A stretch of 64,000 bases of DNA from Centroberyx gerrardi (lineage: Eukaryota > Chordata > Actinopteri > Beryciformes > Berycidae), in assembly GCF_048128805.1 (NCBI RefSeq), contig NC_135999.1:20064449-20128448 (forward strand), read 5' to 3'. Below the pieces are notes generated by a model. That model ran no database searches. It had not been told where the DNA came from and saw only the letters and a list, made by a program, of their open reading frames with translations. Shown here piece by piece: positions 9,835 to 64,000 of this stretch. The position numbers and the translations under genes are program-made. Each line of letters starts with the position of its first letter. The stretch's first letter is position 1.

Positions 9835-12501
<2,667 letters not shown>

Positions 12502-39145: not shown

Positions 39146-39151
39146 TTTATT
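39146..39151 (-). terminator. Possible polyadenylation signal for tmc5
   Basis: AATAAA on the minus strand, 38 nt beyond the tmc5 stop codon. If used, the 3' UTR would be unusually short (about 60 nt). Further hexamers occur near 38830-38855, so this choice is tentative. Confidence 0.4.
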
Positions 39152-39188: not shown

Positions 39189-40345
39189 TCAGTAGCCGTC
39201 GTCATACTCATTCTGGGCCTGCTGTCGGGCCAGCATGGCCTGTATGAGCGCACTGGACCCCGGGGGAGCTGAGTTCTGCGGAGGAGCGGCCACTCTGTGA
39301 ATGCTGTCCTCTTCTTCTGCTCTCTGCCTGGCTTGCATGACCTGCATCATAACACTTGACGTTGAAGATGCCAGGTCGTGTGTATTATCTGCTGGCCTGT
39401 AGTAATCTTCCTCTGCTCTTTGTCTGGCTTGCATCACCTGCACCATAGTGCTGGAGCTGCTTAGGGGGTTTTCTGAAAAACCTGCTGTCCTGTAGTGCTC
39501 ATCCCTCTCTTGATCCTCGGCCCTCTGTCTGGCTTGCATGGCCTGTGTGAGGGCATTGGAGGACGACAGGTGTTCTGAGGGCAAGGGCATCCTGTCAAAA
39601 TCTTCACCCTGTTCGTCAGCCCTCTGACGGGCTAACATGGCCTGCACCAGAGCGCTAGAGGTGTTGGAGGGGGAGGTGTCAACGGGAACGGGCACCCCGC
39701 GAGAGATCCCCCTCTCCTGCTCCTCCAGCCGCTGGCGAGCCAGCAAAGCCTGAACCATGACGTTGGAGTTGGACTGAGCACCGGAGGAGGAGCGGTCGTC
39801 TGAGCGTCGTTTGGTCTGCTGTAGGAACACAGAGATGAGGTTGAAAATGAACTAACTAATCTCAGGAACAAAGGCACTTAGGGTGAATGTACTTTGACCA
39901 CAAACCACAAACCTTTTTGTGATTCTTCTGTTTGGGCTTTTTATTAGGCTTGGATTTCTGGAGGTTCTGGAGCTTGTCCAGCAAGAAGGACTTGTCTTTC
40001 CCCTCCTAGTGAGAGGATCGAAGAGAAAATAAGGCCAAATAAGCAAATTCAGTTGTAACATGGCTGAAAAAGGAATGAATAGGTATAGACAGGTATACTT
40101 ATTCACAAAGTCACATAAGGAGGGTATTGCCCACTCACATTAACAATCTGCTGTCTTAGTAGAACAATAAGCAGCTTGCGCCCCTGAGTGACTTGCCAGA
40201 AGATGTATATGATGACCCTGTGTGAGTGAGCAGAAAAAAAGACAGTCCACATAAGACCAGGTAAAGGCAGACAGACATTGATATTGATACTATAGCTACA
40301 GATGCAGATACAGACATACAGACAGACAGACTGAAAGTCACACAC

Positions 40346-62852: not shown

Positions 62853-63858
62853 ATGCTTGGAGTTACGGTCCGGGCAGACATGGGAGTGATCTGGTTCTTG
62901 TTCGGTGTCATCTGCTGCCAGTTCATGGTCGTGTCTTCGGATGACATAGTGGTGGCATGCGGAGGATTTGTGAAATCTGATGTTGAAATCAATTACTCTC
63001 TGATCGAGGTGAGAGTGCAAACGTCCCAGCTAGCTAGCTAACCGCTAACTAGCTAGTTTACCGTGGTAGGCGGAGATTGGTGGTCTGGCTGAATGACAGT
63101 TTGAATGAAATGACCACAGTAGCTAGCAAGCTAGCCGAAGCTAACGTTAGCCTTCTGCTGCTGGCTAATCTGATAAGTTAGGATGCTGTTTGAGCTAACA
63201 AATACTACATGACAGGGCAGTTGGCTCTGTGTCTGCCAGTTACATTAGTCTGAGGTTTCCCATAGCTATCTGTCAGTTGGCTAATTTGAATGTTCTCTGT
63301 GTGCAGTTAGGGGTAATTTAAGACCGTGTATAGTAGGGGGCTCCTCAATCCCTAAACCCGTCAATGCTGACGAGGAAAATGTTAACTGCTAGCCACTAAC
63401 GTTAGTCCTAATCTCCATTAATTCACACACCTAATGGGATTAGGCGTTTGGTCAATTAGCCGAATTTAAAACTCAGCGAGACTGCGTTGTTTCTTGATGG
63501 AAGTCTTACTCAACACATTTGGCACTTACCTCGTTAATCCGAGTACCAGAAACTGTCTGATCACACAGAAATGATGGTTTACCTGTCATTTATGAACTAC
63601 TAATATGCTTATGTTGTTAACTCTTTTATGCACAGATTAAATTGTACACCAAGCAAGGTTCCTTGAAATATCAGACAGATTGCGCTCCAATCAATGGCTA
63701 CTTCATGATCCCTCTATATGACAAGGTATGTGAATCACTAATTTGTATACTCTTAACTCTATATTATTCATTGACATTGATGGTAATCTACAGACTTGTC
63801 TCTTTAACACAGGGAGACTTTGTCTTGAAGATTGAGCCTCCACTTGGGTGGAGTTTTG
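62853..63858 (+). CDS. nomo: Nodal modulator (NOMO), N-terminal three exons (3' truncated by window end)
   Basis: Exons 62853-63008, 63636-63725 and 63813-63858 (donor GTAAGA) encode the first 97 codons plus 1 nt. An N-terminal hydrophobic signal (GVIWFLFGVICCQFMVV, about residues 11-27) precedes SDDIVVACGGFVKSDVEINY, then IKLYTKQGSLKYQTDCAP, INGYFMIPLYDK and GDFVLKIEPPLGWSF, which match the start of vertebrate NOMO almost residue for residue. NOMO is a large ER membrane glycoprotein with lumenal Ig-like domains that works with nicalin and TMEM147 beside the Sec61 translocon during multi-pass membrane protein insertion. The signal peptide diverges from the mammalian one, as usual. The rest of the gene lies beyond 64000. 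Confidence 0.93.
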
Positions 63859-64000
63859 GTAAGAGTATCTATCTTAACTGCTCTCACAATTTCCATGTAA
63901 CTAGTGACATTAGCTGTAGTGTGGCAGTCTGAGAAGTTGTCGAGAGCCAATCTGTTACTTGAGTATAGCAAATTGCATTAGCTACGTACTTGTTTATCTA

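Follow-up and report, generated by a model that had tools for sequence, protein, structure and literature searches.

The 64,000-nucleotide stretch of the Centroberyx gerrardi genome analysed here (the window; NC_135999.1, positions 20,064,449 to 20,128,448) carries on its minus strand a TMC gene, which we take from synteny to be tmc5. The last coding exon of this gene (39818-39189; 209 residues and a TGA) is the source of a C-terminal tail in which one unit occurs six times in tandem. The exon and the six conserved cores, as read from its translation, are listed below.

39192..39818, minus strand: last coding exon, encoding the six-unit C-terminal tail; open frame, acceptor ..TTCCTACAG/CAG in phase 0, TGA at 39189-39191
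39717..39761, minus strand: core 1, VMVQALLARQRLEEQ
39609..39653, minus strand: core 2, ALVQAMLARQRADEQ
39510..39554, minus strand: core 3, ALTQAMQARQRAEDQ
39405..39449, minus strand: core 4, TMVQVMQARQRAEED
39309..39353, minus strand: core 5, VMMQVMQARQRAEEE
39207..39251, minus strand: core 6, ALIQAMLARQQAQNE; the protein then ends in YDDGY

The repeat array and its gene

The original prediction placed six repeats in the last TMC exon at 39204-39761, and both the repeats and their span are borne out: the best set of six windows reaches a BLOSUM62 score of 243, against a mean of 81.7 (standard deviation 7.2) and a maximum of 120 in 1000 residue shuffles of the tail. The cores follow the consensus [VAT][ML]xQ[AV][ML][LQ]ARQRAEE over about 15 residues, with Q4, A8, R9 and Q10 identical in all six, and successive cores are spaced 36, 33, 35, 32 and 34 residues apart. 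A profile built from all six recovers six domains in the tail frame, which as its own members match by construction, and the next best frame in the window has an E-value of 0.38. Tandem Repeats Finder, run at a minimum score of 30, did not list the array in the tail exon.

When aligned, the linkers of units 1-5 show 25.9% identity, compared to 9.0% (standard deviation 2.1, maximum 16.5) in 500 within-linker shuffles, and one Arg is common to all five. The linkers are homologous, so that duplication involved a unit of about 34 residues, with the core as its conserved part. The 15-residue unit first proposed thus survives as the core, present six times, but the repeat itself includes a degenerate linker with its Arg. 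The linkers are indeed Ser-rich, as had been claimed, Ser making up 24% and Pro 9% of the residues between and around the cores, and the tail contains neither Trp nor Cys. Past its third residue (39192-39809), the tail runs for 206 residues with no Lys and 21 Arg, directly after the Lys-rich stretch of the previous exon; the absence of Lys from duplicated units does not amount to six independent events, and a P value for zero Lys that treats the copies as such is not usable.

By its domain matches, the gene is a member of the TMC family. PF07810 passes the 25-bit cut-off in three exons (C3:20107583-20107696, 36.6 bits; C3:20107142-20107228, 35.6; C3:20107395-20107493, 27.3), and a rough concatenation of exons matches the C. 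elegans proteins TMC-1 (7usw, E-value 7.6e-38) and TMC-2 (8tkp, E-value 7.5e-32) in a phmmer search of the PDB. These are the nearest PDB relatives of the tmc5 body and have the TMC domain in common with it, whereas worm TMC chains were not among the matches of the tmc5 tail search. The remaining parts of the gene model that bear on the tail are as follows.

43248-43151, 43046-42951, 42775-42700, 41892-41759, 41500-41327 and 40217-40139, minus strand: six upstream exons with the TMC domain, their frame continuing through the penultimate exon to the tail
39913..40005, minus strand: penultimate coding exon, EGKDKSFLLDKLQNLQ and a Lys-rich stretch; its start is similar to a segment of the genome's other TMC genes
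39819..39912, minus strand: last intron, 94 bp, phase 0, placed by its splice signals; donor AAG/GTTTGT
39146..39151, minus strand: AATAAA, a possible but weak poly(A) signal 37 bases past the stop (95 AATAAA in the window versus 56 expected)

The seven exons from 43248 down share one frame across their introns and join the last exon in phase 0. The donor of the last intron has 7 of 9 consensus letters, and the ten other donors compared have between 3 and 8, a score of 3 probably marking a misplaced exon boundary. The tail exon would, on this model, be spliced into the tmc5 transcript. Its acceptor is a tandem CAGCAG at 39816-39821 that could gain or lose one Gln. Retention of the 94-bp last intron would stop the frame 16 residues past the penultimate exon (39865-39912) and leave a much shorter tail; keeping or removing this intron may switch the protein between forms with and without the repeats.

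Age and constraint of the units

Silent change between cores, pooled over the 15 unit pairs, is saturated (proportion of synonymous differences, pS, 0.763; single pairs 0.45-1.12), and the corresponding proportion of nonsynonymous differences (pN) is 0.233; with 15 codons per core, such Nei-Gojobori counts carry much noise. Over units 1-5, the cores have a pN of 0.215 and the linkers one of 0.535, at similar pS (0.795 and 0.748). When a block of 15 columns was allowed to lie anywhere in the unit, conservation this strong arose in 33 of 20,000 permutations; a plain permutation of core against linker gave 12 of 20,000, which is optimistic since the core had been picked by eye beforehand, and the free-block version is the fairer of the two. 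Both permutations take columns as independent and exclude unit 6, which has no linker. The claim that a conserved core repeats within variable linkers thus holds within the array of this gene.

Because core and linker of each unit arose together and yet the core pN is lower, selection on the cores is indicated, and the lower rate of change in cores at similar silent change also argues that the tail exon is translated. The cores look both translated and constrained, and selection seems to have kept the copies of the unit alike. A very recent expansion at the DNA level was rejected as an explanation for their similarity, given the saturated pooled silent change and the lack of an array in the Tandem Repeats Finder output, although three of the 15 pairs have a pS of only 0.45-0.51.

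Paralogues, neighbours and the search for further copies

PF07810 has 22 matches in the genome, which group into 10 places. Two of these, L024 and L025, we take to be tmc6-like genes. Of the five genes compared with tmc5 by the CGPF exon, these two are nearest (scores of 110, with 20/53 residues identical, and 102, with 19/53), and tmc7, L027 and L026 score 44, 44 and 41. In the short EGxDK segment their lead is small (L024 54 and L025 52, compared to 50 for tmc7 and 45 for L026). That tmc5 is closest in the CGPF exon to L024 and L025 rather than to tmc7 is consistent with the Tmc56 clade of PMC7003098. A published mouse TMC5 antibody peptide is by eye identical to tmc5 at 9 of 20 positions and to tmc7 at 9 of 20, and was rejected as proof of orthology because of this tie.

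In the window, tmc5 (39-49.5 kb, minus strand) and tmc7 (~53-61.8 kb, plus strand) lie head to head. The contig carries a second TMC pair with this layout at a distance of ~0.86 Mb, at C3:19248706-19249399 (minus strand) and C3:19268668-19269121 (plus strand). The minus-strand members of the two pairs score 110 against each other in the CGPF exon and the plus-strand members 70; tmc7 is closer to L026 on C12 (115). The two pairs look like a duplicated gene pair, presumably tmc5/7 and tmc6/8. Two further genes were recognised in the window.

9835-12501, minus strand: CCDC85 family gene, two exon pieces (Pfam E-values 3.9e-61 and 7.2e-25)
63621-63929, plus strand: piece of a NOMO-like gene lying downstream of tmc7 (Pfam NOMO1-like_1st, E-value 1.3e-19)

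Searched at an E-value of 0.001 against the whole 779-Mb genome (278 contigs), the full tail matched only itself. The motif Q[AV]MxARQRA, back-translated and sought across the whole genome, gave four matches, all in the tail exon (cores 2-5), and its reversed control none; the DNA pattern is strict and misses cores 1 and 6 of the array itself. A native query of 87 residues, at E-values up to 10, returned itself, another stretch of the tail exon (3.4e-4) and a match on C5 with an internal stop (0.41); five candidates were scored in this protein search, and a single diverged unit elsewhere could escape the genome searches. Against the flanks of the eight TMC places besides tmc5 and tmc7, the best match of the unit profile had an E-value of 0.33 over 11 residues on the strand opposite the gene, and no unit was found in the flank of either tmc6-like gene. 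Of these eight, only L024, L025 and L026 showed a recognisable segment past their last membrane helix, and no unit was found beyond it in these three or in tmc7; in the stretches of L027-L031 no tail exon was identified, and for them the negative rests on scanning the flanks and on the searches of the whole genome. In L025, the open frame stops 25 residues after the start of its EGKDK segment.

With no second copy found in the genome or the TMC flanks, the array was therefore either gained in the tmc5 line or lost in its paralogues. The simplest history would be a gain in the tmc5 line after its split from the tmc6-like genes, and a loss in the latter may be the alternative. A transposon or multi-copy origin of the tail exon was rejected, the tail query finding a single place in the genome. 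Among viral and prokaryotic contigs, 16 and 86 stretches respectively matched the pattern, none of them confirmed by tblastn as a relative of the tail. We know of no such array in human TMC5, as the original prediction also stated. A relic unit in the human tail was rejected, its provisional sequence having a unit profile score of -3.7 bits and place 787 of the 887 sequences scored (the tail itself and 886 of 999 shuffles).

Possible roles of the tail

The Chou-Fasman helix means are 1.20-1.28 for the cores versus 0.79-1.01 for the stretches after them, and all six cores have a Ser two residues before them (position -2) and a Ser or Asn immediately before them (-1). Ser and Asn are good helix N-caps. 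On a helical wheel, positions 1, 5, 8 and 12, mostly Ala, form a stripe at 340-40 degrees that Leu/Met at 2 and 6 adjoin, and the invariant Arg 9 falls within this Ala/Leu/Met side. The cores have a net charge of 0 or -1, no Lys or aromatic residue and a hydrophobic N-terminal half. Such a core would probably be a poor membrane-binding helix and would suit insertion into the groove of a protein, where a single salt bridge would be buried.

We give about an even chance to the tail being a multivalent docking array. A unit of about 34 residues would have been tandemly duplicated into a probably disordered cytosolic extension of tmc5, each unit comprising a helix-prone core of about 15 residues, capped by Ser/Asn, and a Ser/Pro-rich spacer with one common Arg. 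Each core would fold into a short helix on inserting its Ala/Leu/Met face into one kind of cytosolic partner, to which the invariant Gln, Ala, Arg and Gln would make specific contacts, and six copies would raise avidity such that the channel is tethered or clustered at the apical membrane. Disorder, helix, partner, clustering and site of action are elements that we infer from sequence. Worm TMC is reportedly tethered by ankyrin. In mouse intestine, a published study places TMC4 and TMC5 more distally than MYO7B, harmonin A and ANKS4B, and by analogy the apical location is a plausible place for a tailed tmc5 to be tethered. Only tentatively do we extend the proposal to an undescribed repeated docking helix, with a Q-A-M-x-A-R-Q-R-A core, that in fish tmc5 would multimerise a cytosolic adaptor at apical protrusion tips and so turn this TMC into a clustered, tethered scaffold by means of a module absent from mammalian TMCs.

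In its conserved cores repeated within drifting linkers, the tail resembles the multivalent arrays of short motifs generally known from disordered tails. The tmc5 core differs in that it matches none of 14 motif patterns and turned up in no other gene in the genome searches. This lack of matches is among several observations that weigh against a docking array. The 14 patterns, IQ, UIM, PDZ and WH2 among them, gave no match in the tail: the ubiquitin-interacting motif (an acidic patch and an LxxAxxxS core) is absent from it, and its C terminus, DDGY, does not fit a class I PDZ ligand ([ST]x[VILM]). A Pfam scan of the tail returned two matches far below cut-off (E-values 0.32 and 0.78), and the best PDB matches of the tail and of the unit profile (0.51 and 0.39) were taken as chance. 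The Eisenberg moment of the cores is weak (0.01-0.29), and of the repeated short amphipathic helices that had been proposed, the helical propensity therefore stands better than the amphipathicity. Silent divergence is lower in pairs 2-5 (pS 0.45), 3-6 (0.46) and 4-5 (0.51), so the copies need not share one age and their similarity may be partly younger. Lastly, comparing units within one gene would be no substitute for comparing species.

The same motif failures and the same three moderately young pairs speak for a tolerated disordered extension, in which tandem duplication lengthened the tail and constraint acts on composition or solubility without a dedicated partner. Disordered tails with repeats are common, and the linkers drift widely, at 26% identity. 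Against this explanation, which we regard as unlikely, four positions (Q4, A8, R9 and Q10) are kept in every core, and the cores change less than the linkers with which they were duplicated.

TMC proteins form dimers, and the tails might themselves associate along the Ala stripe as helical bundles or condensates, clustering channels without a separate partner. Besides the stripe, the Lys-free, Arg-bearing composition of the tail favours such homotypic association by comparison to UBQLN1, whose speckles require Arg in its lysine-free region according to PMC10169902. Against the lysine deserts described there, the tmc5 tail is alike in being a long, probably disordered Lys-free stretch in which Arg is kept, and differs in being the tail of a channel that is not known to belong to the ubiquitin-proteasome system. 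With 15 residues and no Leu heptad, the cores would be short for coiled coils, and the invariant Arg lies on the apolar side, which makes this explanation rather less likely still.

An array of binding sites for CIB2/3 or calmodulin, one per core, would extend the known contact between TMC and CIB and would suit a helix that starts with a hydrophobic half and whose invariant Gln mostly follows an aliphatic residue. We consider such EF-hand docking distinctly improbable: the IQ consensus ([FILV]Qxxx[RK]Gxxx[RK]), strict or relaxed, has no match in the tail, the cores are not basic, and the published CIB contact is with the first intracellular loop and not the tail. That the cores lie as amphipathic helices on the membrane, sensing or fixing the inner leaflet, is very improbable given their weak moment, their net charge and their lack of Lys and aromatic residues, even though the N-terminal half of each is hydrophobic.

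Judged on its sequence, the tail is a real repeat array with constrained cores, found only in the tmc5 gene within the genome searched. Literature on TMC5 C-terminal repeats, teleost TMC5 and TMC evolution showed nothing recognisable on the tail in its titles and the opening of its abstracts, and five core peptide strings had no occurrence in the papers searched. To our knowledge, the anchoring and gating of TMC channels apart from TMC1/2 are largely open questions. Should the tail bind a single partner through all six units, as in the docking array, it would provide a soluble bait peptide for the tether of an epithelial TMC, and TMC5 that carries a multivalent tail would have its natural counterpart in TMC5 that lacks one.
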